From assembly GCA_022605405.1 (NCBI GenBank), contig JABYQQ010000002.1:2604001-2668000 (forward strand): a stretch of DNA of 64,000 nucleotides, given 5' to 3'. The notes under the pieces were generated by a model, which saw only the letters and a program-made list of their open reading frames with translations, searched no databases and was not told where the DNA came from. The position numbers and the translations under genes were made by a program. Positions 4,991 through 54,711 of the stretch are shown piece after piece. Position 1 is the stretch's first letter. Each line of letters starts with the position of its first letter. Origin of the DNA: Earliella scabrosa (taxonomy: Eukaryota; Basidiomycota; Agaricomycetes; Polyporales; Polyporaceae).

Positions 4991-5181
4991 GATGTCGGTG
5001 GCAGTTGGGATAGCGAGAGGGAACGGCGGCAGGGAGGCAGGGGAGAGAGCGTCGAGCGAGGCAGGAGGCAAGTATAAGAGACAGGAGGTGGCACCGTCGG
5101 TGGGGCGAGACCTGGGCGCCAACGGGCACGCCCCGGTGTCTGCGAGCAAGTGGGAGGCGAGGCTGGGCTGAGTTAGTACAG

Positions 5182-10313: not shown

Positions 10314-11817
10314 CTAAGGCTGTGCTTCCCTCCGAGTGGATGACCTCTTTTTCCTCGGCCTCTTCCTCCGTGGCTTCAACGAATCTAGGATACGCATTGC
10401 AACCGACGGCTTTTTTGCGCTCGTAAGCTCGGCCTCAGAACCCTGGGAGTCCGGCTGGCCTGCTTCAAAGGGACTAGATGCTGTGATTCCCGGGGAAGGC
10501 CCCATGATGCTCTTCTTGCGAGCCCGGTGGTCTGTGTTGCGGGTCTTGAGGATGTTCGAAATGAAAAAGGCGAGTGAGCTGAGCTCGGCGGCGTTTTGGA
10601 GCCCGGCCATCCGGTATTTCTGCGGCTGTAATTTACCGGGTATCAGTCAGACCAAGCTCAGCATGTCTAGGTGGATAATCAATGCACCTGGTCTCTTCTC
10701 GCCCGCCTCAGGCGACGGGGCAATCGGATCCATTTCTAGAACCGCGCGGAGCGCTGCTGATCTCACTGGGATGGGTGTGTCCTTGCGCTCCAGAGCACGC
10801 TTCACGATCCTGAGTTAGGATAAACAAGCGTCACATCTAACTCATGACGATGCGATATGAATACTCACGAAGCAATGAAACCTCTCTCTTTGAACATGTC
10901 CAAAGGATCGGGGATGGTGTCTTCGGTAAGGTGCTTCTCAAGCTCAAATCAGAGGTCAACAAGTGGGATGTACTCGACTGCAGGATCGTACTCCCATCCG
11001 AACGGGTTTAGATCGAGGATATCCTGCACGGCTGTGTCGGTAGCATTGGAATGAGCCAGGGAATGGTGATCGTTGTCGAATAGAGACTGGTGATCGTTCA
11101 TCGGGAGTGCATCCTCTGCAATGACAGGAGAGTTCGACGAGGGGAAACCTGTGGATGTTCCGCCAACAGCTTTGTCGTTCTTCTGTCTTTGTGGCGGCTC
11201 TAAATCCTGTTGCTGCTGCTTCTCCAGAAGGTCCATTGCTGCGTCAATGCGCGAATGCTCGACCTCCCAGCAAGTGATGAAGTCGAAGTCAGAGCGTGGG
11301 CTGAGCCGGATGGCCCGTGTATCGTCATATCCATCGGGTCTGACGGGGATACGGACAGTCATCGCACTGTCAATCCAGAAGAAACAGTTCCGGAATGGAA
11401 ACTGTGTTTCAGGAGATATGGGCTCGCGGCCTTTCGAATATCTGGTGTTCGGAAATATAGGCATGACCATGTCAGGTGTGAGTCCGCGGGCTGGTTCATT
11501 GAGGCGCAGAACCGTCGCCACTGGCTCGACCGAGTAGCGGCACCATAGACTATCTGGAAAGGGGAGATCGTGGGGCTGATGCATATAGCAGATGAGCTTG
11601 ACTTAATCTGATGATTGTGCATGGTATTATCGAGCCGACTCACAGCATAGAGATAAACCAAATGTTTCTTGTTCCGCATTGAGCGCGCTGCATCGAGTGC
11701 TTGCTGGTCTAGCTTCAGGTGTTCGATCATCGCCACAGGGTTGAGCCGTATGACAGCAAACCGTCTACACTCAGGAAAAGGTAGAAAGTCGACAGGTGCC
11801 GTTTGACCTTGGTCCAT
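10314..11817 (-). pseudogene. Family A copy A3, decayed tandem duplicate of A2
   Basis: The gene aligns with A2 through all four exons, with the start codon at 11817. Two lesions are visible. First, the tryptophan codon in the conserved YIPLVDLW motif is TGA (10951-10949) where A2 has TGG, which would truncate the protein inside exon 2. Second, in the last exon about 8 bases are missing relative to A2 after the codons for TRLF, shifting the frame so that the basic C-terminal tail is lost; the shifted frame meets a stop near 10471. The frame encoding the A2-like tail (SLKPRRKRPRKKRSS) is still present downstream to 10314. The rest of the domain is well preserved, so inactivation looks recent. 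Confidence 0.75.
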
Positions 11818-13137: not shown

Positions 13138-14555
13138 CAGGCTCCTACCCATCCGCCGCTCGAGTTGAGGGCAATATCCAGCGGGAGGGGGTACGAGTTG
13201 GATCGAGAGTAGCGTAGATCAGACTGTACCCGAATAAACGCCGGACAATGTTGGATCACGTGTATAGTTAGTTGGGCCCTCAACTCTGAGCGACGGCTGG
13301 CACCAAACACAAGTAAATACACGGAGCCCGGAGAACAGACGCCCTTGTCGCCTCCATTTGGAAGCCCATCAACCGTGAGCGCTTCCGTATATTCGATCCC
13401 GCCTCAGTATTACATAAGACCCCTCAGGCTTGTACCGTTCGACAGACTATGTAACTAGTCTCCGTTAGCACGGTGTTGCTCGCTACGCCCCCAGCATGGA
13501 TAGGCGCCTACGCCGGCGCTTGATCCTCAACCACGCCTACGAGGTAGTGAGTTCATAACTCAGCAGGTTCCAATCCATTCCCTCTCAAAGTTGCCACAGA
13601 GATTGAAAAAGTAATGACCGACCCATGTGCAAGATTTGAAGGGGATCGGAGGTCATATGCGTGCCCAGGATCTGTGGTGGCAGGAGGGGTTGCTACGGGC
13701 GCCTGTACCGTGAAATTTGTACTTGTTTGTCCCCGCGAAGTGCAATCAGTCACCTCCTAATGGGTATGCTCGCTTCGCTCGCAATTAGTGAGTACTTTCG
13801 GTCCAACATCTACAGAAACAAATCGTATTCATGGGATGCCAGTATGGGTGCACAGGCGCTGAGCTAATTACTCACAAGCAGGCGACCGTGACCCCCCCAC
13901 AGGCTGCTGCAATTCCGCGATGAGTCTTTCGCCGCTGAGCCTGTATTCAAGTCTGTTCAGACACAGCAGCTAGCTATTGGTTGTGAGTTGATCACACAGG
14001 TGTGTTGTAGATGAGTTTGAACAACCTATAGATGCTGGAGCCTGCACAAAAGGCGCAGGGAACTTTTTGAGTTGACGCAGTTAGCTGCTCACTATGAGTA
14101 CTTCTGGATTAGTAAGTAATGGTCTATCCTGTCCCAAGCCAAATACAACGGGGCTGTCATGCATATGCACTCTGAGCCTTGCTTGGAATATTGTTGGAGG
14201 CTCTTTCGAATGTTGGACGGGAACATTGAACTAGCAGTACTACTAGAGTTGTCGAACAGTACAAGCCTGAGGGGTCTTATGTAATACTGAGGCGGGATCG
14301 AATATACGGAAGCGCTCACGGTTGATGGGCTTCCAAATGGAGGCGACAAGGGCGTCTGTTCTCCGGGCTCCGTGTATTTACTTGTGTTTGGTGCCAGCCG
14401 TCGCTCAGAGTTGAGGGCCCAACTAACTATACACGTGATCCAACATTGTCCGGCGTCTATGATATGATAGGTTGTGTGCGCTACTTCCGATTTAACTTGA
14501 ACTCCCTCCCACTAGATATTGCCCTCAACTCGAGCGGCGGATGGGTAGGAGCCTG
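13138..14555. mobile_element. Non-autonomous DNA transposon with ~307 bp terminal inverted repeats
   Basis: The left end (13138-13444) and the reverse complement of the right end (14250-14555) are near-identical over long stretches. Both start with CAGGCTCCTACCCATCCG. A variable block of about 80 bp lies inside the first 45 bp, and the following ~190 bp are almost identical. The element is flanked by the direct repeat GTAGACTCC at 13129-13137 and 14556-14564, a 9 bp target-site duplication. The interior (~800 bp) has no transposase-like frame. Long inverted repeats with a 9 bp duplication fit a Mutator-like (MULE) non-autonomous element; hAT and KDZ elements usually make 8 bp duplications. 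Confidence 0.85.
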
Positions 14556-14564
14556 GTAGACTCC
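14556..14564. repeat. Right target-site duplication of the 1.42 kb element
   Basis: This is a second copy of GTAGACTCC, directly outside the right inverted repeat. Confidence 0.85.
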
Positions 14565-15049
14565 CAGCTTCTCGACCAATACCACATCTCTCGCTGCCTG
14601 TGACGGACCTCGGTCATATGTTGCCGATTTGAAGCGATCTTGTCGACTAGCCACAACAGCACACCTCAGATCTACGAGCCGGAAGTGCTTGAATGCGCAG
14701 GCAGACAACGCGATCTCACCGCCCGGCTACACACGGGTGGAGGGCCTCGAGCATCGTGTCCCATGCGGCGCTCTGAGACGCCTGTTATGAACGATATCAG
14801 TGGGAGAACATGGTATCTGCCTACAGTACGTCCACTGTCGATTCAGTCTTCTTCTACCTTCGATTCGTACATCTTTTCTTTCCTGCGCCGCTCCGCGATC
14901 CCTCCACCCGTTCTGCTATCTCCGCGCGGGAGGGCGCCGGCTCGCCTACCCCCTCCATTCGCTCTCTCGCGCCGCCACATGGACGTTGCCGTGTTGAGAT
15001 GCAGGCAGAGCGCAGATGTCGTGCCGTGCAATGAGACCATGTCGACCAT

Positions 15050-16485
15050 TCACTTCTTGCCCTTCTTGACCGTATCCGCGAATGAGAGCTTCGGCGGCTG
15101 CCCCTTCCCCTGCTGAGGCGGCTGCGACTGCCCTCGGATTAGGGGACGTCAGTCAAAGTCACGCACTCGTCGTCCAGGCAAGGCTGACGTACCGGAGAAG
15201 CGGTGGACGAGCCTCCCACTTGTGGGATGTTGGACGGTACGGCGGCTCTGCCCAGGCTGGCATTCCCGACTTGCTGGTTGGACGGTATCGTCGAAGCGGC
15301 CGGTGCTGTACTGGAGTCCGGCTTTTGGGCGGACGTCATCGGCCTTTGTTCCGACGATGCAGACTCGAGAGAGAGTTGCGCAAAGTTCAGAAAATCGCGG
15401 TTGTTTGAAGTCGAGGGTGAGGGACTGCCTCTGGCATTGTTCGGGGCGGTGCGTATACTGGAAGGCTGGGACGCTCCCCAGGCGCGCTGCCTATTCGGGG
15501 GGCTCGCGCCGTTGGCTCTTTGCTGTCGTAGTATCGTTTGGTTAGTATTCATTAATGATGAAACATGTTGATCACATGCCTGCGGAGCAGAAGGGTTCAA
15601 TGGAGACATTTGAGGAGACGCGGTGCCCCTTGTTTGTGCGGGCTGCAGGATCTCGACAGTCATTCTTTGCTGTACGGTGAGATTGCAAGGAAATGTTTCC
15701 AACCGTCGTCCTTCCACTTCCATTCTCGGACAAGACCCTACGATGGAACTCCTGATTGCACGTCGTGCAGCACGAATGATGAGTATATTCACGTTCCGTG
15801 CACACGATACAACTGCACTTACATAATAATTGCTCATGCATCTCTGCAAGTAGCTGGGATCGTTTTCACACAGCGTCTCCCACTGTTCCAACTTCTCCTC
15901 AACAGTGGCTAGCATGACCTCGCGGGTCTCAGGATCAATCCGGAAGGTCGACTGCGAGTCTTTCTCCGCACGGTTCGCGTTCCTCTACCTCCCACTTATC
16001 TTCCCCCGTGACGTGAATGGTAGCGCGATGAGCCACGCGTGCAAGTCGTCAGGGCTCGTCTTGCTGTTAGACCACTCGGGATGGGTGTGCAGATGGAACG
16101 TGTAGGGATCCGTCTCGATCTCGCTGTGCGGGTACACAGCGATGCAGAACATCTGGAGAACAAGCGGGAGAAGCTGCCGCAAGCGGTAGTCGCCCTTGTA
16201 TGTCGCGAACAAGAGGACCTGAGCCTCGTCCACGTCGTTCGATATCAAGCGACGCTCGAGGACGACTGCTGGACGCCCGCCCTTTTTGTCCCATTCGCGC
16301 GTCCTTGTCGATCTCGCGCTGGCGGTGGTCGAAGATCGGCGCGAACCGCCCCGGTTGAAAATGTCGCGGACGGGTCCGTGGACGGATTCCTGGATGCCGA
16401 CGATGTCGCCGACATTGTAGGCGTGGTCTTCGGTCGGAATGTGCTCGTCATCGATAAGTGACTGGCATCGCGCACATGCGCTCAT
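15050..16485 (-). pseudogene. Family B copy B1, interrupted by an in-frame amber stop
   Basis: The start codon is at 16485. The N-terminus has a CxxC (CARC), then VGDIVGIQESVHGPV, GGRPAVVLERRL, VLLFATYKG and CIAVYPHSEIE ... HTHPEW. A TAG at 15987-15985 interrupts the frame exactly where B2 and B3 have a conserved tryptophan (GRW or GPW). The same frame then continues with STFRIDPETREV and EEKLEQWETLC, as in the intact copies. The exon ends at 15823 with a good donor. The tail is Ser/Pro/Asn-rich. The last exon, after a GTACGT donor, ends PKLSFADTVKKGKK with the stop at 15050. The gene is divergent from A4 over 429 bp. It is either a recent pseudogene, a readthrough case or a sequence error. 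Confidence 0.7.
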
Positions 16486-16914
16486 GTCATAGAGGAATCT
16501 GAGGGACTAGGAAGATGGGGATGAGGACCAAGAGCGTGTCGGGGCTGTACCTTTGTCGCGATATATGAAGGACGCGACTTCAACCTTACGTGATAAAACG
16601 CGCGGAGCCGTTCCATTATGTACGAATGTCTTCTATGTTCCCAGGAGCTCGGAGTGGCACACGAGCACGAGACGAGAACGAAGTACATGACCGGGCGTTA
16701 ACCGCACCAGGAGTACAAACACGCACAAACACTGCCATAATCGGTCGTTGTCAGGAGCTGCCTCGGCTATTTCAGACGGTGGGAGCACGCTTGCTGTGCT
16801 ACCGCCACCACACCACAGCTTCGAATTCGAGTCAGCCAGATATCGCTCTCCCTGGGTACTTGACCCGCCTCGTCGCCGAGAGAACTCATCTCTCATCTTG
16901 ACCACGCCGTCGAC
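16486..16914. promoter_or_regulatory. Shared divergent promoter of B1 and A4
   Basis: These 429 bp separate the two start codons. A TATATA-like run near 16560-16566 lies 75 bp upstream of the B1 start. TTGTCAG at 16748-16754 also occurs in the other two A/B intergenic regions at a similar distance from the plus-strand gene. Confidence 0.5.
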
Positions 16915-19160
16915 ATGTCTGGGTGGCCTCGGAGAGCTGCACGGCTGCCCAAAGCCCGGCGGTTCGCCGTGGCCCGCATGGATCCCGCAGCGATGGTCGC
17001 ACACCTCGAGGATCCCGTTGCCCTGCGTGCAGCGAGAGCTATGAAGCCCAAGAAGTATCTCGTCTATCTCGAGTTCGTGAGTATTGTTCGCCACGGGCGT
17101 ATGAGCTGTCATTGACTCCCCGCTTAGCCACAGGACCTGGCGATGCCGGATAGCGAGTGGTGTCGCTATCGCATCAGTCCCGTCGCCTCCACCCCCCGCC
17201 CACCGGTCCCGGAGAAAGGAATCACGCCAGACATGGTCATTCCCATCTATCCCAACACAGACAATCCGAAGGGCAAAGGCCACGTCAGTGTCAGACCTAC
17301 GCCGACCTTCCCGTTCTCGAACTGCTGCTTCTGGATCGAGAGCCGCATGTCGCTGCGGGTGCGCGTGGACCGTGAGCGCGGATACGACAACGATCGAGCG
17401 TATCAGCTCGATCTCGCGCAGCACATCGCTTTCACAGATGGTTTCGAGCAAGACTTCGCTGCCATGAGTCGGTACCAAAGGAAGTTTGCCGAACGACCGA
17501 CCTCGTCTTCTAGGCGATTTCGTCCCCAGCGCCACAGCGCACAAGGGCCATGGGTCACTTCGTCCGTCGACGATATGGAGTCGGACGATGACTATGCTCT
17601 GGATGACTTGGAATCCGAGTCACAGTCGGATTCGGGCCGGCGCTGCGGTAGATCACCTAGCCCTACCATCCCGCCCTCGATCACCGACCTCCTCTCACTC
17701 AACCTGTTTGGGTGGGACGATGACCCTTCTTTCCAGTACATCCCTCTCGTCGATATCTGGTTAGATATCGCAGAACACCTGACAGAGGACACCATTCCCA
17801 GCCCCGCCGAGTTGTGGAAGGAGCAAGAAGAGATCTTCACGTGAGTCTATCCATGGATCAAGATTCCTGGGTCAACTCCTAACGCCCAGTCAGGATCATC
17901 GAGGACTCGGTCGAGCGACAGAAGCAAGAGAGATTGACAGCCTGGAGTCTGCTCTCCAGCGCAGTATCGCATACCGCGATCTCGTACCACTCGCACTCAC
18001 TTGTCGTTGATGTGAACGGCAACTACATCCATCATGGCGCCCATGCTGTCTCGTCATTGACACACATGTCTAAGTACGTCCTGACGCATCCTATGCACCA
18101 TGCGATTGACATTTAGTCCTCTCATTGTAGACATGCTCGTCCATCGACAAGTGAGGAGGATTCGACCTCCGGTCCTTTCGCCTTGACATACGCGCACCGC
18201 AGTTGGTCAGGCGACCTCCACTCTCACGAGATGGTTCCGCTCGTCGACACTGCCCGTGGTCCATCCCTCGAGAAGTCCAAACCACCTATGGCCCACGAAG
18301 CCGATCCTCTGAGCTACCTCACGCTGGCCTCGCCCCAACCACGGAAGCGACCGCTCCCTGAACTAACGTGGGGAGGTCAAGTTCCCTCTGCGCAGCCCAC
18401 ATCTCCACCGTATGAGCTCTTGGGTCTAACTGAGCTACGACCTCCCGCGATGGCGCAGATGCTGCCGCAGCCGCTCTCTAAGCCCGACCGTCCCCTCTCA
18501 GCGCTCCCAGTGTACAAGGAGAAGGCCACGCCACCGCCATCGTACGCTGACGTCGTGAAGAAGGACCCGCGGCCCAGCAGCGGCGCAAACGTCGTCGCCT
18601 GGCCGAGGCAGTCGTCTTCCACGAGTCTCGCCGGAAGCAGCACCATGTCGGTCCGCAGCACCGCCTGGCTCCGCCCTCCGTACTCGCTCCAGTCGGCCAC
18701 CCGGGCCTCAGTCTCGTACTCGTCGTCGTCGTACACGTACGAAGGGCGAGTGCAGACGGAAGAGGGCCGTTTCCACCGGGTGCTGCCCGTCACGGCGCAC
18801 AATGCTGCGCAGCAGCGGAAGATGGCCGAACACGCGCGCCGAGAGGCCGAGCGCATGCGCCTAGCGGCCGCACGGCAGCAGCACAGGAGGCGGAACGAGC
18901 CGGAGCCCGTGCTCGAGCTGGTGCAGCGCGTGGCGGCGTCGATACACGATGGGGCGTCCAAGGCGGGGAAACCGGAGCGCGAGGCGATGCGGAACATCGA
19001 GCAGGCTCCGAGTCGCGGCAAGGGGATGAAGACGCGGCGGGACAGTAAGCCGGTAGGTGGGAGACCGCCGCGGCGTGGAAGGAGCGGTCATGGAGGATCG
19101 AGTGGACGGGGTGGTCTAACGCCGCGGTCTCGAACGCGGCCTCTACCGATGCAGGTGTAG
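16915..19160 (+). CDS. Family A protein, copy A4 (unknown function, long C-terminus)
   Basis: Four exons join to 694 aa: 16915-17076, 17128-17840, 17894-18073 and 18131-19160. The conserved parts are FAVARMDPAAMVAHL, KKYLVYLEF, EWCRYRISPVAS, GITPDMVIPIYPN, FPFSNCCFWIESRMSLRV and YIPLVDIWLDIAEHL. Intron phases match the other family A genes. The last exon is unusually long, about 340 residues, and appears disordered: it has Pro/Ser-rich stretches, an Arg/Glu-rich helix near ARREAERMRLAAARQQHRR and an Arg/Gly-rich end (GRPPRRGRSGHGGSSGRGG) that resembles RNA-binding RGG tails. A4 is intact although its divergent partner B1 carries a stop. Function is unknown; the RNA-binding idea is inference only. 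Confidence 0.75.
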
Positions 19161-19407
19161 GATCATGATGTGGTGAGTCTACGACCTTGGTCATCTAAGA
19201 GTTGGAACATTCCCGCTGTTTGTCACTAGTCGCTATCTCATGCACTTGACATGCTACGTTAACCGCTCTCGCCGCCCCTTGTATCCTAGTTAATTTTCCA
19301 TGCCATCAATTTGTATGTTGCTGACTGTCGTTGGGATGTCAAGCACAGCAAGAGCAGGCATACGGAAAGGTCCTATTGCTGAGGTTCAAGTGGGTAACGC
19401 GAAGATA
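19161..19407. other. Short convergent intergenic region, left of the MITE
   Basis: It lies between the 3' ends of A4 (plus) and A5 (minus). No gene is present. Confidence 0.5.
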
Positions 19408-19409
19408 TA

Positions 19410-19567
19410 CAGTCATCCCCCGTTCAATGGGTCACCCCGGTCGATGGGTCACCTGCCTTGTAGGGCAACTTTTTGGCGGGAGGTGGCACCAGAACGCCAA
19501 CAAAGCGCTCAGCTGTGGTGCGAGGCGACCCACTGAACGGGGTGACCCATTCAGCGGGGGAAGACTG
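19410..19567. mobile_element. 158 bp MITE with TA target-site duplication
   Basis: The element starts CAGTCATCCCCCG and ends CGGGGGAAGACTG. The inverted repeats extend inward through AATGGGTCACCCC (left) and GGGGTGACCCATT (right), with a second partial GATGGGTCACC block, so they run about 37 bp. A TA dinucleotide flanks both ends (19408-19409 and 19568-19569), as for Tc1/mariner-type MITEs. There is no coding capacity. Confidence 0.75.
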
Positions 19568-19688
19568 TACATGCGAAAAGAACACATCCATAGTCAGGTA
19601 CGATACGTGGTATCTCACGGGGAGCGAGCTGTGTGCCTTATTCAATTCCAATGGGATCAGTCATGTGAGGCTGATACTCACCGCAGTG

Positions 19689-21274
19689 CTAGCAAGAGAA
19701 GAGCGTCTGGGCGAGCTTCTTCGCCCACTTCTGGATCTTTTGTCGGGGTTTGCGCCATCGTCTGGAAACATCTGTAGGCCCGACGTCAGTTTAGCTTCAT
19801 CTTTGCTTGACTAGACACAACAGCACAAGGCGTACCGTTCGGCGTGTGATGGGTCTGTGGCGTCATGTCACCCTCGAGGTCCCGCGACGACGCTTTGGAC
19901 TCCCGATCCGATGATAGAGCGACACAGCTTTCGTCCTGCGTCGAAGGTACGTGAGCAGATGCTGATGGACGACTCTCTTGTCCACGGGTCGGTGGTCCGC
20001 TGCTCTGTTCAGAGGATGTTGAATCACCGTCAGGTACGGAGGACGGCGGAGACTCGGTGCAATGGACAACGTGAGCGGTGCCCTCCTCCGATGCGAAAGC
20101 ATCGCTAGGGGGACTGACGAGTTTTTGCGCTATACGCCGACCCAGCATTCGACGCGCCACGCCACGCTTGATGATCCTACAAGACATGAGTGCTGTCCGA
20201 TCATGTGAAGAGTAGTAATATCTTCAACATACGAGACGATCATCTCTGCTTCTTGCTCGAGGTCTACCGGACTTGGGATCTTGTCAGCGGTGAGATGATT
20301 ATCGATGTCGAGCCACACGTCTACGAGTGGAAGGAGCCCAACTGTGACATCCGGGTTCCACCCAAAGATATCTGGCTCTACAGCAGTTGTGTCCGAACGT
20401 GCTGTGTCTCCGGAGTCGGTTCTCTGCGGTGGCCGGCGTGGCTCAGCACCCGGACAAGTGTCGGACGCCACAGGCGCATTGCTTGTGGGGTCGGATGAGG
20501 CATTGCCATGGTCGTCTTCCTCGGGAGGCATTGCCGTAGTCATACCGGTGGCAATCGCTATCTCCTCGAATGCCTGCGATAGTCGTTCATCGTCTATGGG
20601 CTCCTCGCCATCCGCGACATAGGAGCGGAGCTCGAAGTCCGCCTCTGTTGAGTGTGGCAAGTCGTATGAGCAAGTACCAGCCGGATGGAAGTTGTCTTGT
20701 TGAAAGTTAGGACAGGAACGATCTTCTACTAAGCTTTTCCTGATCCTAGCAAAGTCATCTGCGAATATGTCGTTTAGATGGAGATACTCAAGCGGGGGTA
20801 GACTGATGGCTCCATCATGTTCGTAGAAGTCGGGCTTGTTGTCTACCCGGACTGTCATGTGGTTGTCAATCCAATGGAAGCAGTTTGGAAAGGGGAAAGA
20901 GGGAGTCGGATGTAAGGGGCTGTAACCCCGAGCGTGCTGGGTGTTTGGGGCGATAGGAACAACCATATCGGGTGTGATCCCTGATTCGGCTTTTGAAGGA
21001 CGTAGTGTGGTTCCTATGGGCCATATCATGTAACGACACCATCGCCCAATAGGTAGTTGAGGGAGTTCCCCGGGCTACGGAGTATTAGATGCAACTTTGG
21101 ATACGATACTAGTCAGGAGCTCACCCAGAGTAGATACACCAGATACTTCTTCGTGGGCATTGCCCGTGCTTCTGCTAACGTCACTTCGTCCGTAAGACGT
21201 AGCTGTGTCACCATCTTTTCTGGCTTGATTTCTATGACAGCATAGTGCCCCGGAAGTGGGATCGAATACCGCAT
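19689..21274 (-). CDS. Family A protein, copy A5 (unknown function)
   Basis: Four exons join to 471 aa: 21274-21125, 21074-20233, 20176-19836 and 19771-19689. Exon 1 reads MRYSIPLPGHYAVIEIKPEK, then AMPTKKYLVYLLW. Exon 2 contains GRWCRYMIWPIG, GITPDMVVPIAPN, FPFPNCFHWIDNHMTVRV and LLPLVDVWLDIDNHL. The second intron has a strong GTATGT donor at 20232. The tail is basic and Trp-containing (SRRWRKPRQKIQKWAKK), resembling the tail of A7. The protein is diverged from A2/A4/A6 but keeps every intron position. It is transcribed divergently from B2 over 428 bp. No lesions were seen. Confidence 0.75.
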
Positions 21275-21702
21275 TACTGTGAGAGGATGTTGCCCAGGAT
21301 GGCCTCGCCGTCGACCACTGCCTTCAGGAGGACTGATTGCCTAGACGAGAGAAGAGCAAGACGAGTGGGGTGAAGATGGAAATGGGAGAGCTCCGCCCGT
21401 GGGGAAGTGGGGAATATGAAGCAGAGTCGTCGGACAGTGTCGGAGAGAGAGATATGTCGCCGTCCTGTTTACGTTTGTTGATTAATGTGGGTAGTTGAGC
21501 GCTGATCGTGAGTACGAACCACATGAGCGCACACTATAAGGAGATTGTCAGAGACTCCCTAACAGCGGACAAGCACGTATGGCTATACAGTATCATATGC
21601 GCGAAATACTAAAGACCTTCGGAGGGGATATAAAAACCTACGGCTCCCACGTCAACGCGACTGCCAGCACTTCACCCCTTCAGTCTTGCTGGTGCGACCG
21701 GG
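21275..21702. promoter_or_regulatory. Shared divergent promoter of A5 and B2
   Basis: These 428 bp lie between the start codons. A TATAAAA at 21629-21635, 74 bp before the B2 ATG, serves the plus strand. TTGTCAG at 21545-21551 is shared with the other A/B promoters. Confidence 0.55.
21629..21635 (+). promoter_or_regulatory. TATA box of B2
   Basis: TATAAAA, 74 bp upstream of the B2 start codon. Confidence 0.6.
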
Positions 21703-23709
21703 ATGGCTGCGACTCCTCCCTCAGCTTCGCCAAGCTCAGTCTCGAAATGCTCTACGTGCACCACACCACTCCGCAATCCCCACAAGCACTCCTTTTCCGA
21801 AGAAGGCACGCGCACTGGCGATATCATCCTTGTGCATGAGTCCGTCCATTCTCCAATGAATGTCGCGCTGTCGGGCAAACGGGAAGAAGGAACAAGCCCC
21901 ACCGGCGGAGAGTCGAAAGCTACCGCAGACCATCCCCAACGACCCGGTATAATCTGGTTGGCCACCAAGGACCTCCCAGGCTCTCATCCTCCGGGAACCG
22001 CCACTGCCAGTGGGCCGACCATGATGTGCCTTATGACATCCTACAGGGGGGTTTGTCGACACCGCCATCTACCCGAGGTACTCAAGTTATTTGCGATGCC
22101 AATTGCCCCGCATTGTGAGATTGAATCACAGGTGGAGCATGTCCACACGTCTCCTGAATGGCAAGAAGAAAATATATGGTGTATCGCATATCCATTCATG
22201 TCCGCCAGTCCGATCATCGGACGCTGGGACTGGCGAGATCAGCACGGTCGACGGCAAGATGATCTCTCTTTCAAGATAGAGCACAATGTCCTGGCTGAAC
22301 TATTCAAGACGTGTAACGAGAAGCTCGCTACATGGAATACTCGATGTAGCGATGGAGAATATCTGAAACGATGTCAGGCTGAATACAAGGTCAGAATATC
22401 TGTTGATACCAGATATTGCATCCCCAGATCATCCCACTACGACAGATATTCAAGAACCCAGAAGAATGGAAGAAAGTCATAGCAGTAAGACCTCGACACT
22501 CCCTTCACGTATATCTAATCAGCTCAACGGGGCATACAGGCGATGGAAGCCAAGAACACTTCCAAACCTGATGGTACAGCTGACAACCATGAGAAGATAC
22601 CCACGGAAGAACCTGAGGCCACGAGTGTCCCTGCGCGAGTCCCTGCCAGTGACTCCGAGCAATCTCAGACTGAGAACACCAAAAGCAGCTCAGACGGACG
22701 CAAACACTCTCAGCCGGCATCTGCTAAAGTATCAGCATGGGTACGTCCAAGGCCAACCTCGTCTACCATGTCGTTCCTGACACTCCTATCATACAGACCG
22801 CTGAGCGCTCTCATCATGCTCGAGTTCCTTCAATGTTATCGCTCAGCAGCGCAGATAGTGTGCCCTTCCACCGGAGAATCCCATCTCGGGAGGACTTTCC
22901 GGCTCTCACCAACATCAAGGCTGAGTCTGCCTCAGCGGGGAAGACTGAGCACCCCGTAGCAGTCAAGCCGAGCTTGGATAGCGTTCGCGGAGGATGCACA
23001 CCGTCCATGTCGTCAATGGCTTCCGTATGGGTGGGTTCCTGCATGTCTACCATCGACAGCTATGGGATGCTCACTGCAATAAGGTTAGGGTCCAGGACGA
23101 GCCGAGTTTGTGCATTCCCGAAGGTCGTCCTATCTGTCGTCCACGAGCCTGGACGGTACGAGATCACACAATCAGGTCCCATCACTGGACGACTTCCCGG
23201 CCCTGCCGAGTGGCAAAGAGTCAGCGATTGTAGTGGACAGAATTGAGTCGGGCGCAACTCTCGAAGTCGATGTGAACCACCAGGCCGCTTCTACTGGTTC
23301 ACATGAGCAAGACCGCCGCGAGAGAATGCATGCCAGAGACGGGATGCCGGGTCCATCCCTTGAGCCGGACCACTTAGAGCATATCAGTGTTACTGGGACC
23401 GGCCCGACAGGTGCACTGACGGCCAGTCCGACCGCAGTGTCCGGTGAATTGACGTCTCAGCCGACCGCTATGGTCAGTATCGGTGCCATGCCTGAGGAGC
23501 TCCCAGCAACATGGTCGTGTGCTTACGTCAATCTATCACAGCAGGAGAACAGATCTGCGGATAGTGGTTCTGGCAGGGTGCCTAGGAAGCTGAAGAAGAG
23601 AAGAACCCGGCCTCGGGGGCGCACGTTGTCATGGACAGCAACGATGACTGGGGGATTAAGCGAGCTCGTCGCTGGAAGATCCTTTGCAGATGCTGCGCAA
23701 GCACGCTGA
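21703..23709 (+). CDS. Family B protein, copy B2 (unknown function)
   Basis: Five exons join to 599 aa: 21703-22389, 22428-22484, 22540-22740, 22797-23030 and 23089-23709. The N-terminal domain has KCSTCTTP (CxxC), TGDIILVHESVHSPM, RPGIIWLATKDL, MMCLMTSYRG and IAPHCEIESQVEHVHTSPEW, then the conserved GRW that is a stop codon in B1. The long second half appears disordered and contains the motif DFPAL twice (SREDFPAL and SLDDFPAL). The C-terminus is basic (RKLKKRRTRPRGR) followed by GRSFADAAQAR, comparable with LSFADTVKK in B1. It shares a divergent promoter with A5. Molecular function is unknown; the core resembles PemK-type beta-barrels only in pattern. Confidence 0.75.
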
Positions 23710-23912
23710 GACCCGTGAGGTACGAGTTATAATCTGTTAGACCAGATTTGATGTACCACTCAAACAGCGCACAGGGTCACCGACTCATTCATGCTACCCG
23801 CAGTTACTCGGGGCTCCTTCATTACAAAAGAAACGCTGTTTACATTGTATAGTTTCCCATGAACTCCGTGTGCGCGAGACGAACCATCATATGGTCAAGC
23901 TATACCGTTGAG

Positions 23913-24179
23913 ATGGCACAGACCAACTTAAGGCTACTATGTCAAAGCGATCCCGCGGGCAAAGCGTTCACAGTAAGTACCCACGCATGCCGCTAACGAC
24001 TGTCATTCATCGCATTCTCTCTTGACTTCGAGTCGTGCTCTTCCATAACCTGCCATGTCCCAGAAGCCGGGTTTGCGATCCAACACGGCAACCAGTGCGC
24101 GTCATGCAATTTCAAACGCCGGGGCCACAGCGGAAGTTTTGCGTTCTCAGGAGCTGTGGCTATTCAGGCCACTCAATAA
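23913..24179 (+). CDS. Possible small two-exon gene, 68 aa, cysteine-containing
   Basis: Exons 23913-23972 and 24033-24179 join through a 60 bp intron with a GTAAGT donor, a GCTAAC branch-like site and an AG acceptor. The product begins MAQTNLRLLCQSDPAGKAFT and contains five cysteines, including NQCASCNFKRRG. It matches no family I know and has no signal peptide. The intron signals are better than chance, but a 68 aa product just downstream of B2 could also be a decayed fragment or part of a transcript end. Confidence 0.3.
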
Positions 24180-24747
24180 ACCACTCGGATGGCGTAGCCG
24201 GAGAGGGAAGGATACGGCTTCGGTATGATCACATCTTACGTGCAGCGTTATCAACGACATCTGCATGAGTCTTACTCGGACCCTACTAGGGTACACGAGG
24301 AATGGTGCCACATACCCACGCCGTCTGTCCCCGACCAAACCAGTACTCAGCGGTCTCCCACCCTTCGGAACCAGCCACGACGCCAGTGTTGCTGAAACCT
24401 CACGCCGATTCTTCCTCGGGCAACATTTCCCCTGCCAGTGTAGCAAACGCCACAAAAGCAGACATACAGAAGGGACAGTCCGGGCAGTCAGGATCCTATG
24501 TGAGTGTACGGGAGGCATACCAATACATCCGCAATACGACTGATATGATTATCACTGTGCTTTAGATCCAACACCGACTGGACAAGTCGCATGTCAGAAG
24601 CGAACTTCACCAAATCAACTCAGGCGGGACTCGTCAGCCCGAGCGATCGACCCTTATGCCAGCACAACGATAGGATTGAATGGCGGTCATGAAACCATCG
24701 AATTCAATTGATTTACATGGGTATCTAGTAATCTCCTCATAATGAAA
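24180..24747. other. Convergent intergenic stretch without a supported gene
   Basis: Short plus-strand frames exist (such as 24302-24565), but none has a domain or splice support. It lies before the 3' end of A6. Confidence 0.4.
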
Positions 24748-26219
24748 TCAGAGACTGTGACCACACTCGTCAAGATGCAGTACATAATGTCCCCACAATG
24801 ATCCAGCACTAATCGAGCGACGAGCACTGCACGTATCTAGACAGATGACTTACGCTCCGACTGTCGTCTCAGTCGGCGCAGACCCAGCCATATGTGTACC
24901 CTCAGTCGTATCAGCAATTGCCTCACAGGGCGAATCTCTACAAGCATCGGATTGCGCTCTGCAGACGATCTCATGAGTGATAGGACAATCTAGCTGTCTG
25001 ACCGGCTTACTGAGTGATGCTGAGCTCATGCCACCGCCACTCTGGGGAGTTCTATTGGTCTCTGGAATGGGAGTGCAAGACATGGGAATGTCGTCGAAGT
25101 ACCCTTCCGGAGCTACCTTGTAGTCTTGGGGAAAGGGACTCTGCTGGGACACTTGGACTGAACGTGTGGGCGTGATTGATTTTTTGGCAGCACGCCGTCT
25201 TATCAAGGACTCCTTGATGATACTGCAGTATAGTACATGTGTTAGTAAACCTCATACAGAGTACCTATGTGACTCCATACGACTCGCCTTTTGATCGTCT
25301 GCTGCTCCTGATACAGGTCTACTGGACTCGGTATGGAGTCAGCCACCAGATGCTGATCCAAGTCAAGCCACACGTCCACAAGGGGTATAAATTTGTTTGC
25401 TGAGTCGTGCTGCCAGCCAAAGATATTCATGGAATCCATGAGCTCGTATGAGTCAGTGTCTGGGGATGATTCTCTGCTCGGTGTGCGGCGAGGGTCTGAG
25501 GGGAGACGGTTGATGTCCTCGGGCTGGCATGTTTGTCCGTCGGTTGAGGAAGCGAGCGATGATGGTGTCGTGCAGCGGGACGAAATTGCATGGTGAAGGG
25601 AGAGAAAGATAGGAACAGCGGAGGTTTCAGGGTGGGGTGTGGCGGCGGCGGACATCTCTACATTGTCCTGTATCCGCTTGAAGTCGTCGTGCCAGCATTT
25701 GAGATGAGCCATGTATGGGTCCCTTCCCATTCTCACTGCGTGTTCCTCGTCATATCCTTCGGGCTTGACTCGAACGCGAACTTCGAGTGTACTCTCGATC
25801 CAGAAGAAGCAGTCGTTGAAAGGGAAGCATGGTTCCGGTCTAATCGGAGTACGACCGCGCAGATGTTCCTCGTTAGGATAGATGGGCATCACCATGTCAC
25901 CTGTGATTCCCATAGATGGATCTTCGGGGCGGAGGGTAGTCGCCACAGGATGAAGCAGATAGCGGCACCACTCGCTATCAGGCATAGGAAGATCCTCAGG
26001 CTAAGAACAACACGATAAATAGGCTATGAAGATTGTTCAAAGTGGAAATATAGTACTCACAAACTGGAGAAACACCAAATACTTCTTCGGAGTCATCGCT
26101 TGAGCAGCTTCCGTAGCTACTGGGTCCCGCAGCCGCTCCACCATCGCTACGGGGTCCATCCGTATAACAGCAAACTGGCGCGGTCTTGGAAAGGGAAGGA
26201 GATGCAGCGAGTGAGGCAT
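24748..26219 (-). CDS. Family A protein, copy A6 (unknown function; GC-AG intron)
   Basis: Four exons join to 439 aa: 26219-26061, 26000-25288, 25222-24854 and 24826-24748. Signature segments are FAVIRMDPVAMVERL, KKYLVFLQF, EWCRYLLHPVATTL, GITGDMVMPIYPN, FPFNDCFFWIESTLEVRV and FIPLVDVWLDLDQHL. The second intron sits at the same codon and phase as in the other copies but begins GC rather than GT (GCGAGT at 25287). The C-terminal half is Ser/Thr/Pro-rich and lacks the long basic tail of A2, with only RRRAAKK. The last exon is assigned by splice signals alone. The gene is divergent from B3 over 549 bp. Confidence 0.72.
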
Positions 26220-26768
26220 TGAACTCAGTTGTCCGCGGAATGGAGGTGTAGATGAATGGCGAGGGTGAAGGATGATCGGTACGATCTAGCAGTGGCAAGA
26301 AGCTAGCCTTTCCAGATGCAGAATCAATCGAGACGATCGCAGCTTAGTGGTAGCTGTGACTCGCTTACTGATAGACAGTACAAGGTGATGTGAGCCTGTG
26401 GGGGTTGGGGAGGAAAGGAGGAGTAAAGCTGTGAGGACGACAGCTCACGGGCCAACTCAATATGTTTGTGGGTATTTGTGCTTTGTGGGCGCAAGCTCTC
26501 AGGATGCATAGCTTCAATAGAACCCCCTTCAGCGCCGACAGAGGTCTTTCTCATGGGAAGCTGACACGTCCTCATGGGTCACTGATTGTCAGCACGAGGC
26601 TGCATTACCCTAATCAATTGGAAAAACAGTATCAAGGTCTCAGTACCTTGGCCTTATATCCGGCCGGTGTAGGCCAATGTCGTGACATCTCTCTCTCCTC
26701 GACCGAATCCGCTCTCTTCTCATCGCTGCAAGACTCCTGCTGCACTCATCCAATTGTCGCCCTGCGGG
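26220..26768. promoter_or_regulatory. Shared divergent promoter of A6 and B3
   Basis: These 549 bp lie between start codons. A TATAT run at 26655-26659 lies about 110 bp upstream of the B3 start. TTGTCAG at 26586-26592, 183 bp before the B3 ATG, matches the other pairs. Confidence 0.5.
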
Positions 26769-28591
26769 ATGGAGGATTGCGCCAGATGCAGCAACTTATC
26801 GGACACGCCCTACCTCATTCCCCCCAACAGCTCATCAATCTCCCCCGGGGACATCATATCCCTTAAGGATTCCGTTGACCGTGTCGTCTATAGCGACATC
26901 ATTGCCAAAACGGCTGCAAGCATGGGATTGATTGTCACCAGAACCCCCAAGCCCCACGAAGACACAAGTGGATTTGAAGGGCGTGGCAGTCACAATGGTC
27001 GACCAGCCATTGTGATGCAAGAGCGATGTTTGGGTCAAGGCAACGTGACGTTGGTCTGTTTGGTGGCCACTTTCAAAGGAACAGGGCTACGTAGCTTGCT
27101 TCCTCGCATTCTACGTGACTTTTGTGTTGCCATGTATCCCCACACAATGATCCCCGACGAACCTGGCGGGATGCATTTCCACACATCCCCGGAGTGGTAT
27201 GAACACCGTTGCGGGAGAGCAAACGCATGGGTTCTTCCCGTCCTTACGAAGTCCTTTGGAGACATTGTCGGCCCTTGGTACAATCGGGAACCCGTTCCGA
27301 GGAAGACGAACCAGAATGCGGAGGACGCGAAGGATGCGGAGGACGCGAAGGATGCGGAGGACGCGAAGGATGCGAAGGACACGGTGGACTCGGTTTCGAC
27401 GTTCAGGGTCGACGATGCCACGTACTGGTCTATTCTGGAGAGATCTACAGAAAAGTGGGAAGCCTGGATCACCGAATGCAAGAGAAACAAGGCGCATATC
27501 TGGGACGTCGCGTCAGAGTACAAGGTGCGATCGTATACTTCTAGCGATGTAGGTCAATTCGCAACCTCATGTCTGATTTCTTGCTAAGAAAAGGGCACTG
27601 GAGAGGGCTATGACGCAGGGCGGGTCTACCGTAGTGAGTACAACCTCCGTCACCTGTAGCCCTCAATCTCACAGCGTTGTAGAGCCCTGACTTTATCAGC
27701 ACTACGGGGGCGACGTCTATGTTCCAACTGAACACCTCTACCATTCCCCAAGTGAGTCTCAGTAACATAAAGCTCCTACAGTCGAAACCCCTTCTGATCA
27801 TTGAGGCAGAGCATTCAGATTGGCGGTTTTCATATCGCCCATCCCGGTCAAGTAGGTGTTCCTACCGTAGCTCATGCCCTATGCTCTCATACAAGCCACA
27901 TTTTGGTAACTCAGTCGAAGCAGACTCGGAGGTCGTCGACCAGTACTAACCCAACGTCCAAGAGCAAAAGCACTGGCAACCAGTTCAGCGTTCTGCAAGA
28001 CGAGATGTTTGACGAAGATAGGCAGGGAAGCGAGCGGTCAAAATCCCCGTCGACTTCTAGTCGCGAGCCGGCTGAGGAGACTTCAGCCCACACCATACCA
28101 AGAGGCTCGTTATCTCTATGCAACGCTGTCGACCTTCAGACCGAGGCATCGCCCGTTACCCCAGTCCCTGATTCATCATCCGCACAGTCTGACTCGGCAC
28201 GCACTCACGGGGTTCCCTCCATAGATATGATGACCGGAACCACCACCATCACGCGCAAGGTCAGTCTCCGTGGTATGTGTCTCGAGGCTGTCCCGTAGCC
28301 AACATGTTGTCCCTTATAGGACCATATGGAACACAACCTTGGAACGCCTGGCGGGCAATGCCCAGGCGCTGGTCCGAGCACACTTACGACTGTGAGTACA
28401 TGATGTATATTGCTCTACTATGTTCTCATCATGATTCGTAGGAAACCATCGATCACGACGAGGGAGGACCCTGGATAGATACGACGCGCAAAAAGCCAAA
28501 GAAGAAGCCATTCGTCGAGGGGTGGTTCAGTGGGTGGCAAAAATCACGTACACCGGGGAACAAAGGGAAAGGGAAGGAGTCGAAGAAGTGA
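26769..28591 (+). CDS. Family B protein, copy B3 (unknown function)
   Basis: The ATG at 26769 gives MEDCARCSNLSD, keeping the N-terminal CxxC. The core has PGDIISLKDSVDRVVYSDI, NGRPAIVMQERCL, LVCLVATFKG, CVAMYPHTMIPDEP and HFHTSPEWYE, then IVGPWYNRE with the conserved tryptophan. A charged insert of AEDAKD repeats follows, then STFRVDDATYW and EKWEAWITEC. Exon 1 ends at 27524; small exons 27589-27633 and 27700-27751 follow. I could not resolve the splicing between 27752 and about 27950. The last part is Ser/Thr-rich and ends with basic RKKPKKKPFVEGW ... KGKESKK, stop at 28589-28591. It is the divergent partner of A6. Confidence 0.68.
27312..27384 (+). repeat. 18 bp in-frame tandem repeat in B3 (AEDAKD units)
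   Basis: Three full copies and one partial copy of an 18 bp unit encode alternating AED and AKD triplets, a highly charged insert that neither B1 nor B2 has. Confidence 0.8.
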
Positions 28592-29038
28592 CCGGAGTGA
28601 TCTGACAGTGGGTCGTCGCGCAACTACAGAAGGCGGCGTTGAGCCGACGAGGCAAAGGAGACTGCAATACATGTTAAAAAGTCGCACAGTGCTATATCTA
28701 TGCGACTCTCGAACGTGCTTGCCTGCATACTGGAGATCTCTCCTCAGCATCCTAGGTAGCCTGTGCAGTATTATGGTGGCGACAGGAGCCGCCGCACCGC
28801 CTCCAGGCGGCGGCACTGGCAAGGGTGGCGAGGATGTCGTAGCCCGCTACCAGCCTTTTGAGTTCCGACAAAAGAAGGGAGCGGCCTCAGGGCCGTCGAC
28901 GGCACCTTCGACGAAGTGGAAGCATGAGCACGTATATGGCACGAGACTGTTACTTGGATCTCAATGTCTTGTTCCTGCCTCGTTCAATTGCGTTCAGTGC
29001 CAATCCAGTACCAAATTCCAAACACCAGCCATATCACG

Positions 29039-29470
29039 ATGCCTGGCACCGACGCAGCATCCTCGCCCTCAGTCATTGAACCGGACCTCGATCTGAGCCA
29101 GGAGACGCTCCCTCCGTACCGCGAGGTCACTCCTACACATGCTCTTCTCGCACCTAGCACGACGAACTCGACAACAGGGGTGGACACCGAAAGACAGGCT
29201 TCCGAGTACTGGCTGTTGCGCAAGCCTCGAAAGCCCATCCATCGCGGTACACCCTCCAACCACACAGAGTCAATGCAGATGCGGAACCAAGTTCAGGTTC
29301 AGGATCGAACGGCAGGGAGTTCCCAGTCGAATGACCGAGGTCGCGTGAGTGGCAACCCCCCATCCCAGCCTTGCGAACCGACTGACGCGTGGACAGGGGA
29401 CACAGTCAACTATGGCGGCGCCCGGAAGCGGTCAAGCAGGATCAAAGAAGCTCATGAAGAGGCAGCCTGA
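29039..29470 (+). CDS. Hypothetical protein, 143 aa, disordered
   Basis: This frame begins MPGTDAASSPSVIEPDLD and contains a PPxY-like motif (ETLPPYREV), the type bound by WW domains of ubiquitin ligases. It has SEYWLLRKPRKPIHRG and a basic end (GGARKRSSRIKEAHEEAA). A second frame just upstream (28773-28931, starting MVATGAAAPPPGGGTG and containing ARYQPFEFRQKKG) may be a first exon, but joining the two puts the frames out of phase with the splice sites I can see. No family is recognised. The gene lies between B3 and A7. Confidence 0.35.
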   Translation: MPGTDAASSPSVIEPDLDLSQETLPPYREVTPTHALLAPSTTNSTTGVDTERQASEYWLLRKPRKPIHRGTPSNHTESMQMRNQVQVQDRTAGSSQSNDRGRVSGNPPSQPCEPTDAWTGDTVNYGGARKRSSRIKEAHEEAA

Positions 29471-29806
29471 GTCGCGCGGGATACGCAAGAGCCGGAGCCT
29501 AGGGGACATATGCGTGGTGTTGTAGAGAAGCGTGCTGGGATAACGCGGTGCCCGCACGCGGCACCCATGTCTCGCCGCTTCATCAGAAGACTCTGTTATC
29601 TCACTGTCAATATGTGCTAGTGTCACTCCTCGCCGCACAGCGGCCGATAGACTTACTAGATGTCTCCTATGCATCGCATACGAGCGACACCCCTCCGAGT
29701 TCTCGACCATGCTCTTAGAACTTTCTCCACCACGCGATTCGCGCGAGAGGGCGTGGCACATTCCGGCAGTATCTGGGGTCCTCGATGCAGCGCTGCCGTC
29801 CTGATC

Positions 29807-30695
29807 CTAACGAGAGTGCATCGTGAGCTTCACGACATAACGTAGCAACATGGCGGCGGCCTGGACCCACTTTTTGATCTTGGACCACTCAGCACAAAAC
29901 CCGCGCGGGTTAGGGAGACTGGAACGACCTTCGACCTTCGCCTCGGTCGCTCGAGCCAGAATTTCTTCTTTACTTGCGAGCCGCTTCTCGACTTTGGGAC
30001 CGTCGTCATCGAATCCATACGAGTCGTATGGCTCGCCAAGAGACGATGGTGGCCAAGGACATTCTTCGTATGCGTGTAGTGTCACCGTATTCGAGGGTGG
30101 ATCGTCCAATTGAGAGCTGATGTCTCCGTTTACCCCTGTACCGCATGTCTGTGACGGGTCGGAACTGCGTGGCTGCAAAGGAGACGATCCGCAAGACGGG
30201 AATCCAGCGATAGAGTTCGAGTGCGAGCTGCCACTGGTAAGGGTGGCGCCCTGATTTCTCCTCATGGCATCTTCCTGACGCTTGAGAATCAAGTACTGCT
30301 CCTCATCGAGCGACATGGCTTCGCCACAGTCATAGTGGGTGTCCTTTGCACGGATGTTAATCGTTATCTGGGAATGTAGTGAGAGGGAATAGGGGGGCGT
30401 CGTACGCGGCGTTCCGACGAGGGTGGTGCAGTCGGGTGCCACGGCGGCGACGAGGTAGGCGCGACATCGACACCATTCACACCCGAATTCGGGGTAGTCC
30501 ACAAGCTGCGGTGAGGTGAGTGACGAAGACAGAAGCGAGAACGAGAACGGCGCTTACATGATCTATCACGACGAGATATTCTTGCGGCTTCATAGCTAGT
30601 GCGGCCTCAAGGGCTTTAGTATCCGTCTGAAGGTGGTCCAGCGTCGCGACCGGGTCTAGCCGTATCCAAGCGAGGTGTGGTTGCATTATCATCAT
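29807..30695 (-). CDS. Family A protein, copy A7, short and diverged (unknown function)
   Basis: Two exons join to 278 aa: 30695-30558 and 30505-29807. Exon 1 keeps AWIRLDPVATLDHL and AMKPQEYLVVIDH. Exon 2 keeps EWCRCRAYLVAA but lacks the family's DMVxPIxPN and FPFxNCFFW segments, going almost directly to ITINIRAKDTHYDCGEAM, and it has no third exon. The tail KIKKWVQAAAMLLRYVV resembles the A5 tail (KIQKWAKK). The most likely history is internal deletion followed by divergence, or a specialised short form. No family B partner lies upstream. Confidence 0.6.
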
Positions 30696-31339
30696 CAAGG
30701 ACGGATGAGCACGATTCGAGCGTAGGGTGAGGCTTGAAGTGGTCTGGCAGCGTGATATACCATCACAGACGGAGGTGTTCTCATACGGGCAGTCTCCAAC
30801 GACAACCGAAGAAGATCCGACACAATACTAGATTGTCAGCTTGCAACGATTATGGAGGTCCATAGGACAATCAGAGAATGTAGGTGAGACGGAGCAGCAC
30901 GCACGTACTCATATCGGGGACCAGACAACAAGCCATCTCCGGGTATGAGTGTACGAATGAAGATCTACTAGAACACCAGTTTTGGATCAACACATGCAAT
31001 CTGAGAGCTGGCGAATGACATACCTTACGCATAGCTAGGACACCTGCCACGCAAGACACACGATGTCCTGCGCGTAATGGTCATGTAAGACAGGATGGTG
31101 ACTTACCCGAGCTACACATCGCCTACTGCGCTCCGTCACAGATGGAGGCCACACCTATCAGTCACGGTTAGCCAGAAGGGGCGACGTGCCGAAAGGAACA
31201 GAAGCAACAGTGATGCAATCGTCCATTGCGCGACCAACACCCATCAAGTACAAGCAACAGTAGGGTATTCCGGAGCACGACATCAGAGATATGGTGAAAC
31301 ATACGCGGGTAGCGCTGACGCGGAACGGAGAACAAGACC
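30696..31339. other. Intergenic stretch without a supported gene
   Basis: It holds the 5' flank of A7 and the 3' flank of the saccharopine-dehydrogenase-like gene. Only short overlapping frames are present. Confidence 0.45.
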
Positions 31340-33038
31340 TTACCGGTCTTTGCTGTTCTCCCCGTCTCCACGCACAATCTCGGTCTCGAAGTGCATCCGG
31401 CCGGTTGCCTCCAGACGGCGGATGGCAACGTCTCCGAGCGCCGTCGAGGGTGTGAGAATGCCACCGAACCTCGCGGTAACGGGGAGAGACGCGTCGTCCA
31501 GGAGAAGTCCCAGGGCGCACTCGGAGATCATGACTGTGGGCGCGGTCGGTGAGCGATCGAATGGCGGAGGGCGAGGGTGAGAGACTTACACGCAGTGAGG
31601 AGGTACCCGCCGTCGCCTTTCATGTGCATGACAGACTTGGCCTGAATGCTGGGATCGGTCGCGGACTGAGTGAAGTTCGTGATTTCCGCCCATCCTTTCT
31701 CCATCTCTCTGCAAGAGCACATACAGTCAACCCGCGTACGACGTGAATGGATGGGTCAACGTACTCGTCTGACGGGCCTTCTCCTGACTTAGGTACGAAA
31801 AGCCTCGCGATACCACGGACCTAACAGCATCGTCAGAAGTGAAGATGGGACCAGATGCGCGTACGGTCTGACCAGACTGCTATGCCACAACAGCTTGAGG
31901 AGAAGTGTGATGACGACACTGACGACGGCCGTACCGAGCCACGAGCTCCCGACGACCATGTACTCCGCATAGCGGAACTTCGGCCCATAAGTCAACGACT
32001 GGATCGCAGCTTCCTGCGCCTTGGCGTCCGCGGATCGGGACACGACGTGCGCTTTGGAGGCAAGGAATGCATTGAGTCCGAATGTACGCTGCACGATCCC
32101 GCGGTTGGTGCCGCCCTCGAACCAGAACCCGCCGTACAGGGAAGAGAAGGGCATGCGCATTACGAGGGCACGTTGAGGACTGGGGTGACCTTGCACTGCA
32201 TTCCGAAGGTTGGCTCGCTGCTCGGAACTAGTGGACTGTACATACCTAGACTGAGAGCGTAGTCTCTCTGGCCCAGCTTGTACCGTATACGTGGAACTTG
32301 CTCGATGTCGGACATCAGCGTCGCGACTGTCCCGCCCGAGGCGCCGCCCTTGAAGTGGCAGAACGTCTGTGAGAGACCAAGTTGTGCATCCGGTCCAAGG
32401 TGGCTCTTGAGTGTCCTGTTTGACAGGAATACGAGGAGGTCGGAGGGCAGGGAGACAAACCCGCATGCAGGGATAATGATCGCACCGGTTGTGCTCGCGA
32501 GATAGTCATAGCTGCGCGAATGGATGCATATACCCACTGCATTGAGTGCGGGCAAGACTCGCGAGGGAACCTGTCGACGTACCGCTGTATAATCTTGCGG
32601 ATGAAGTGCAGCTCGCCAGCTAGGTCGACATACCGCTTGCCGTGCACCGCGCACGCTCTGCATCGCGTTCAGCACGTCGATGGTGTACGACGCGTAGGAA
32701 AACTCACTTGACGACGTCTGTGCCCCATATCCAGTACGGTCCGACCACGTTGATGACCACCTTCACCTGCTTGACTGCTGCCTCCACATCGTCGTACCTT
32801 GACACGTCAACGAGCACTGTCTTGACGCTGTCGTCGATTCCCAGCTCCTTCTTGAGGGCCTCCCCTTTCGCATGCGAGCGGACAGCAAGCGCAAATGTGA
32901 ACGAGGAGCGTTGGGGGTGGTTGTAGAGATACTTGGTGATGAGCCGGCCAGTGAAACCTTAGGACGCCGTAAGCGCGAGCCCTGCACACAATCGCCCGTC
33001 CGCTGACCTGTAGCGCCAAGCACGAGGATATCGGCCAT
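31340..33038 (-). CDS. Saccharopine-dehydrogenase-like oxidoreductase
   Basis: Starting from MADILVLGATGFTGRLITKY, the first two exons form a Rossmann NAD(P)-binding motif (GATGFTG). Further exons give VVINVVGPYWIWGTDVVK, GKRYVDLAGELHFIRKII, DYLASTTGAIIIPACGFVSL, LGLSQTFCHFKGGASGGTVA and NRGIVQRTFGLNA. The C-terminal part has a hydrophobic segment (VVSVVITLLLKLLW), then LFVPKSGEGPSDE, GWAEITNFTQSA, VMISECALGLLLDD and the end RRLEATGRMHFETEIV. This order and spacing is that of the fungal saccharopine-dehydrogenase-like (trans-enoyl-reductase-like) family, usually about 430 aa and often membrane-associated, not the true lysine biosynthesis enzyme. At least six introns; outer ends are firm and some inner junctions approximate. 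Confidence 0.82.
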
Positions 33039-54622: not shown

Positions 54623-54711
54623 AGCAAAAGTGATGGTGGAAAACGTGTCTATACAAGTGATATTCACACCGTAGAGTCAATACGCGGAGGCGCTGATGAT
54701 TTGTCCCTCCC

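Follow-up and report, generated by a model that had tools for sequence, protein, structure and literature searches.

In the wtf family of fission yeast, one gene makes both poison and antidote. At homeodomain (HD) mating loci, several paralogous gene pairs can sit together. For wtf, the literature names members that provide the antidote alone as well as antidote mimicry (PMC6283613). The HD1 and HD2 genes at basidiomycete mating loci are described as divergently transcribed partner genes (PMC4915694, PMC8305134). Podospora het-B (Bh/Bp) consists of two adjacent genes from different families, the products of which interact as a recognition pair (PMC10890737). Here, we describe two protein families, designated A and B, the genes of which form divergent pairs in Earliella scabrosa (Polyporales; genome of 51.7 Mb in 48 contigs). 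The DNA analyzed was a 64,000-nucleotide stretch of contig C2 (positions 2604001–2668000), hereafter the window, for which an earlier note had claimed three head-to-head A/B pairs. This observation is confirmed and extends well beyond the window.

Compared with the HD1/HD2 pairs, the A and B genes show the same divergent transcription of adjacent partners (13 of the 13 B genes found) and the same occurrence as multi-pair arrays. They differ in that no homeobox match was found in seven A/B proteins of the window, 12 B members, and 12 A members (five from the window), which agrees with the earlier note for the members scanned. The A/B cluster is also located on another contig than the homeodomain match, since C36 was the sole genomic place reported for PF05920, the only homeodomain model used. 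All 23 matches to STE3 pheromone receptors lie on C20 and C22 and none on C2; a mating-type locus was rejected on the basis of these positions. The likeness to homeodomain mating loci drawn previously lies in the divergent-pair architecture only. Podospora het-B resembles A/B as two adjacent genes with different products, but it belongs to an ascomycete and involves HET/lectin-fold and PII-like proteins, for which the scanned A/B members gave no Pfam match. The wtf genes likewise form a diverging multi-copy family, whose antidote-only members, as named in publications, would parallel the A genes that stand alone. In wtf, a single gene yields both products, whereas A and B are two separate genes. 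None of the titles and opening parts of abstracts retrieved named gene-pair families of this kind, and no paper searched contained both "divergent gene pairs" and "Polyporales".

Using tblastn, A cores were located in the window at 6834–7577, 8717–9397, 10883–11575, 20232–21074, and 25293–26000 on the minus strand and at 17128–17841 on the plus strand. Matches to B were found at 15826–16485 (minus), 21703–22389 (plus), and 26769–27524 (plus). Each of the three B genes is head-to-head with an A gene (A4, A5, and A6), and the ATG-to-ATG distances of 429, 428, and 549 bp as well as the inversion of B1/A4 relative to A5/B2 and A6/B3 are as previously claimed. The paired genes are arranged as follows.

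15052–16485, minus strand: B1 gene; conserved domain 15826–16485, in-frame TAG at 15985–15987, 3′ end approximate
16486–16914: 5′ intergenic region common to B1 and A4, 429 bp
16915–19160, plus strand: A4 gene; exon 1 16915–17076, core exon 17128–17840, tail open reading frame (ORF) 18117–19160, tail exon borders unsettled as a trial join met stops
19700–21274, minus strand: A5 gene; exon 1 approximately 21128–21274, core exon 20232–21074, 3′ end approximate
21275–21702: 5′ intergenic region common to A5 and B2, 428 bp
21703–23709, plus strand: B2 gene; domain exon 21703–22389, long low-complexity tail, exon borders inferred
24850–26219, minus strand: A6 gene; exon 1 approximately 26061–26219, core exon 25242–26000, followed by a tail, borders inferred
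26220–26768: 5′ intergenic region common to A6 and B3, 549 bp
26769–28591, plus strand: B3 gene; domain exon 26769–27524 with a 9-nt tandem repeat coding EDAKDA (27304–27393), tail exons inferred

For the whole genome, B genes were collected from five B queries combined and A genes from three A queries plus a profile of A exon 1, with the grouping of exon matches being our own; counts for such large families are lower bounds. Thirteen B genes were found, all of them within the 2.440–2.840 Mb interval of C2. The 36 A genes comprise 28 on C2, including the degraded copy A7, and eight on six other contigs (one each on C3, C7, C8, and C10, two on C13, and two on C6, one of which is weak with a best E of 4e-4). 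Every B gene (13/13) has an A gene on the opposite strand with the 5′ ends facing each other, at ATG-to-ATG distances of 268–665 bp (median 429). B lies to the left of A in seven pairs and A to the left of B in six. The earlier view that the pair, and not its orientation, is the conserved unit is borne out by the complete pairing and the 7 versus 6 split, and adjacency with divergence holds for every B gene found in this genome. The 13 pairs are not independent trials, because pairs were copied as blocks.

No standalone B was present among the 13 B genes found genome-wide. Leave-one-out B profiles recovered the omitted member in all 13 cases (worst E 3e-26), and the full B profile matched the 13 genes with a worst best-fragment E of 1.5e-48. 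When the latter was run over 286,655 bases, the next-best match had an E of only 0.16, giving no 14th B gene. Two weak B matches, one on C16 (E 0.44) and the other on C5 (E 0.19), were taken as chance and not counted. In contrast to B, 23 of the 36 A genes are without a B found. Sixteen of these, for which the contiguous 5′ sequence spans 1.48 kb or more, were checked in the flank; the other seven were covered by the genome-wide single-protein searches. None of the 16 carries a B gene within 1,480 bases 5′ of the core exon, compared with 13 of the 13 paired A genes, and tblastn with all B proteins detected no B remnants in these flanks (best E 0.15). A sub-threshold B match (E 9) upstream of the solo A gene on C3 was not supported by the flank check. 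Farther upstream of the solo A genes at 2543417 and 2575398 sits a B gene that faces another, nearer A gene.

Among the 13 pairs, the amino acid identity has a median of 37% for A (26% to 82%) and of 22% for B (15% to 56%), and B is below A in each of the 78 comparisons. These values rule out a single recent segmental duplication as the origin of the array, so that a further point on which the earlier note could have failed came out in favor of pairing. The distance matrices of A and B correlate (Mantel r = 0.766, none of 20,000 permutations as high), also when the two closest sets were each reduced by one member (r = 0.68, 0/20,000). Groups common to both trees are the pairs at 2.822 and 2.838 Mb, those at 2.447 and 2.525 with 2.534 Mb, and those at 2.549 and 2.564 Mb, the last accompanied by solo copies in the A tree. 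In the B tree, in which only 2 of 10 inner branches are well supported, B1 to B3 and the B gene at 2.572 Mb form one group; their A partners are found in one larger, weakly supported group.

Relatives of A are present in Polyporus, Lentinus, Fomes, Trametes, and Ganoderma, and the paired A genes are interspersed in the A tree among solo copies and A proteins of other species. P0006 from Fomes groups with A5 (100/98), and P0003 to P0005 from Lentinus and Fomes fall together with A4 plus two solo copies (95/86). In at least two pairs, the A lineage is therefore older than the split from those species. A 99% identical fragment of A6 (P0001) lies on a separate 2,085-base contig. Among 129 pattern matches in viral contigs, a search made for A only, none was a relative. 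The ratio of nonsynonymous to synonymous substitution rates (dN/dS) was computable in six comparisons, some of them at high dS (up to 2.2), while a seventh (B) was saturated. It amounts to 0.17 for A and 0.29 for B in the pairs at 2.82/2.84 Mb, to 0.29 for A2/A3, and to 0.14–0.21 in three more A comparisons. This indicates purifying selection in the computable comparisons. In the sole pair with both values, B is less strongly constrained than A.

The scanned A and B members gave no consistent Pfam match and, in profile searches, no relatives in the PDB. Weak matches of single members to SKICH (E 0.0065), Josephin, HVO_2248, NCBIfam PRK01103 (E 0.049), and PADLOC DruK (E 0.002) were taken as chance. 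Cys and His residues are conserved in B, with a Cys pair (CxxC) in 12 of 13 members and HxH in all 13, and might constitute a zinc site. The order GD[IV]...RPa[IV] in B is what we take to be a loose likeness to the PemK/MazF toxin domain. An identity with PemK/MazF was rejected, as 12 B members had no Pfam match to it (E up to 10, with the HMMER filters dropping most matches above 0.1), NCBIfam and PADLOC returned one weak match each for the B members, and a fold search with a poor B model found nothing at E < 1.

Profile comparison aligned columns 116–149 of B with columns 81–114 of A, a segment of 34 columns that is among the best conserved stretches in each family. The hhalign score of 32.9 exceeds the maxima of 25.2 from 400 shuffles of the A columns and 24.0 from 600 shuffles of the B columns (fitted P ~2e-5). 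The same A stretch was aligned when only paired A (33.5), A of other species (31.5), or either half of the B set (31.1 and 30.4) were used. Since the segment beats all 1,000 shuffles, A and B may be very distant paralogues.

The failure to find any B without A, the frequent occurrence of A without B, the matched divergence, and the retained head-to-head orientation are best explained by a dependence of B on A. We consider the chances about even that A and B constitute an ancient two-protein unit, the members of which work together. In such a unit, the two genes would use the common 5′ region and be expressed jointly. Repeated copying and inversion would have multiplied the unit within a single chromosomal region, the two members of every copy diverging in step, and A would additionally have spread alone. 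The partners would fit each other pair-specifically, and such recognition would explain why there are so many diverged pairs. Physical contact between A and B, possibly through the 34-column segment, would allow each A to hold or direct its own B, the presumed active member. B may act as part of a complex, as a guarded effector, or as a poison.

Several results weigh against this two-protein unit. The distances of A (0.31) and B (0.51) also correlate with contig position, and matched distances are expected from block copying of pairs as well as from co-evolution. No promoter words common to the intergenic regions of the pairs were detected, the best k-mers being within the shuffled maxima. The structure models are poor, with a predicted local distance difference test score (pLDDT) of 51.8 for B and 38.6 for A. 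As for the common segment, hhalign itself assigns it a probability of only 48%, and with solo A genes alone the score of 26.3 hardly exceeds those of the shuffles. The domains before and after the 34 columns give no A–B signal, by which full-length homology was rejected; common descent of A and B is a lead rather than a result because the flanking sequence lends it no support. Neither single-sequence searches nor a profile turned up a B in another species. This approach is weak for B, since the profile search scored just the 7,996 candidates with most words in common and recovered 1 of the 13 B genes, so that absence elsewhere is not established. The only B protein found in the public set was P0009 from E. 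scabrosa, residues 1–252 of which match C2 at 100%.

By analogy to fungal spore-killer families, B could be harmful and A the matching antidote or immunity protein, with solo A genes as orphan antidotes or suppressors. The asymmetry would suit such a system, since no B lacks an A among 13, compared with 23 of 36 A genes without a B found (16 of them flank-checked). The pattern of 16 solo A loci with no B upstream, against none of the 13 B genes lacking an A, fits only if A is the antidote, and other models give the same. B1 is the sole B gene whose domain contains a nonsense codon, and it keeps an A gene with an open core exon. The dispersed solo A at C6:2056798 groups with the paired A4 (97/87) and the solo A on C3 with the A genes of the 2.82/2.84 Mb pairs (100/100). 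Precedents for antidote mimicry and antidote-only members are named in the wtf literature (PMC6283613). However, 12 scanned B members lack a consistent Pfam match to PemK/MazF or any other toxin profile, and neither the age of the pairs nor their constraint is a specific pointer to selfish drive; overall, we judge this explanation unlikely. A fungal recognition or killer system in which two very distant paralogues pair through the core segment, diverged pairs of private specificity stand in one array, B is active and restrained only by its own A, and solo A genes confer extra immunity appears doubtful.

Passive linkage would require neither interaction nor dependence: an ancestral A–B block would have been copied repeatedly with some B genes lost, the proteins would have unrelated roles, and the layout would be kept because breaks in the common promoter are harmful. 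Block copying does account for both the correlated trees and the layout, but less readily for the eight A copies on six other contigs without a B found, while no B was found away from A, or for pairs that have stayed together although they are old (B down to ~20% identity) and occur in both orientations. We regard passive linkage as rather improbable. That A and B are heterodimeric regulators of a homeodomain-like kind, partners that bind DNA or reside in the nucleus and serve self/non-self recognition as at the mushroom A mating locus, is suggested by the divergent partner genes in a multi-pair array and by the basic Lys/Arg-rich tails read from the sequences of A2, A3, B2, and B3. This is very improbable given the scanned members without a homeodomain match, the PF05920 match on C36 and STE3 on C20/C22, and a nuclear location that is only inferred. 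Least probable is that A–B units are carried around as cargo of a transposable element. A CxC5/KDZ-associated cysteine cluster (4361–5245) does adjoin the A–B cluster, and a palindromic repeat resembling a miniature inverted-repeat transposable element (MITE) at 19405–19572 recurs at 15 or more other genomic places. Nevertheless, a repeat scan of 14000–31500 found no common flanking repeat of at least 20 nt around the three pairs, and the pairs found are confined to one contig, with A alone being dispersed.

The earlier interpretation is supported in part: the pair as a conserved unit, the missing homeodomain in the members scanned, and an origin other than one recent duplication stand, and the resemblance to homeodomain loci is architectural only. 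The co-expression, interaction, and self/non-self or element-control roles that it proposed are conjecture. The comparisons point to an undescribed A–B system with partners that diverged in step. If the proposed partnership is true, this would be a two-protein system without a described relative found, with no fewer than 13 copies in a single mushroom genome. To our knowledge, few of the genes that underlie vegetative incompatibility in mushrooms have been identified, and a diversified two-gene array is therefore a concrete candidate. Even without a role in incompatibility, the apparent dependence in one direction, with no lone B found, predicts which protein needs the other.

The remaining A genes of the window are unpaired.

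6822–7775, minus strand: A1, solo A gene; 1,480 bases upstream without B
8714–9605, minus strand: A2, solo A gene
10847–11787, minus strand: A3, solo A gene; closely duplicates A2, core with an in-frame TGA (10949–10951)
approximately 29807–30671, minus strand: A7, degraded A copy; exon 1 (30564–30671) recognizable, core diverged

In A7, exon 1 alone scores with the A exon 1 profile (E = 3.4e-10). The TAG of B1 and the TGA of A3 are located inside the conserved domains at positions where relatives tend toward Trp, and each is a single A-to-G step away from TGG. Each may reflect a gene defect, an intron that escaped recognition, or a site of RNA editing; the earlier note mentioned neither codon.

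The MITE-like element lies between A4 and A5 and has 50-nt arms that are 84% complementary; seven of its other genomic places are 96–98% identical. The ORF matching CxC5, a KDZ transposase-associated cysteine cluster, is on the minus strand to the left of the A array. Two long adjacent ORFs of 639 and 527 amino acids at 51173–54676 (minus strand) are without a Pfam match, and the second is rich in TDAGEDDE-like repeats. The gene at 45446–46096 (plus strand) encodes a Uso1/p115 head domain and is an ordinary housekeeping neighbor.

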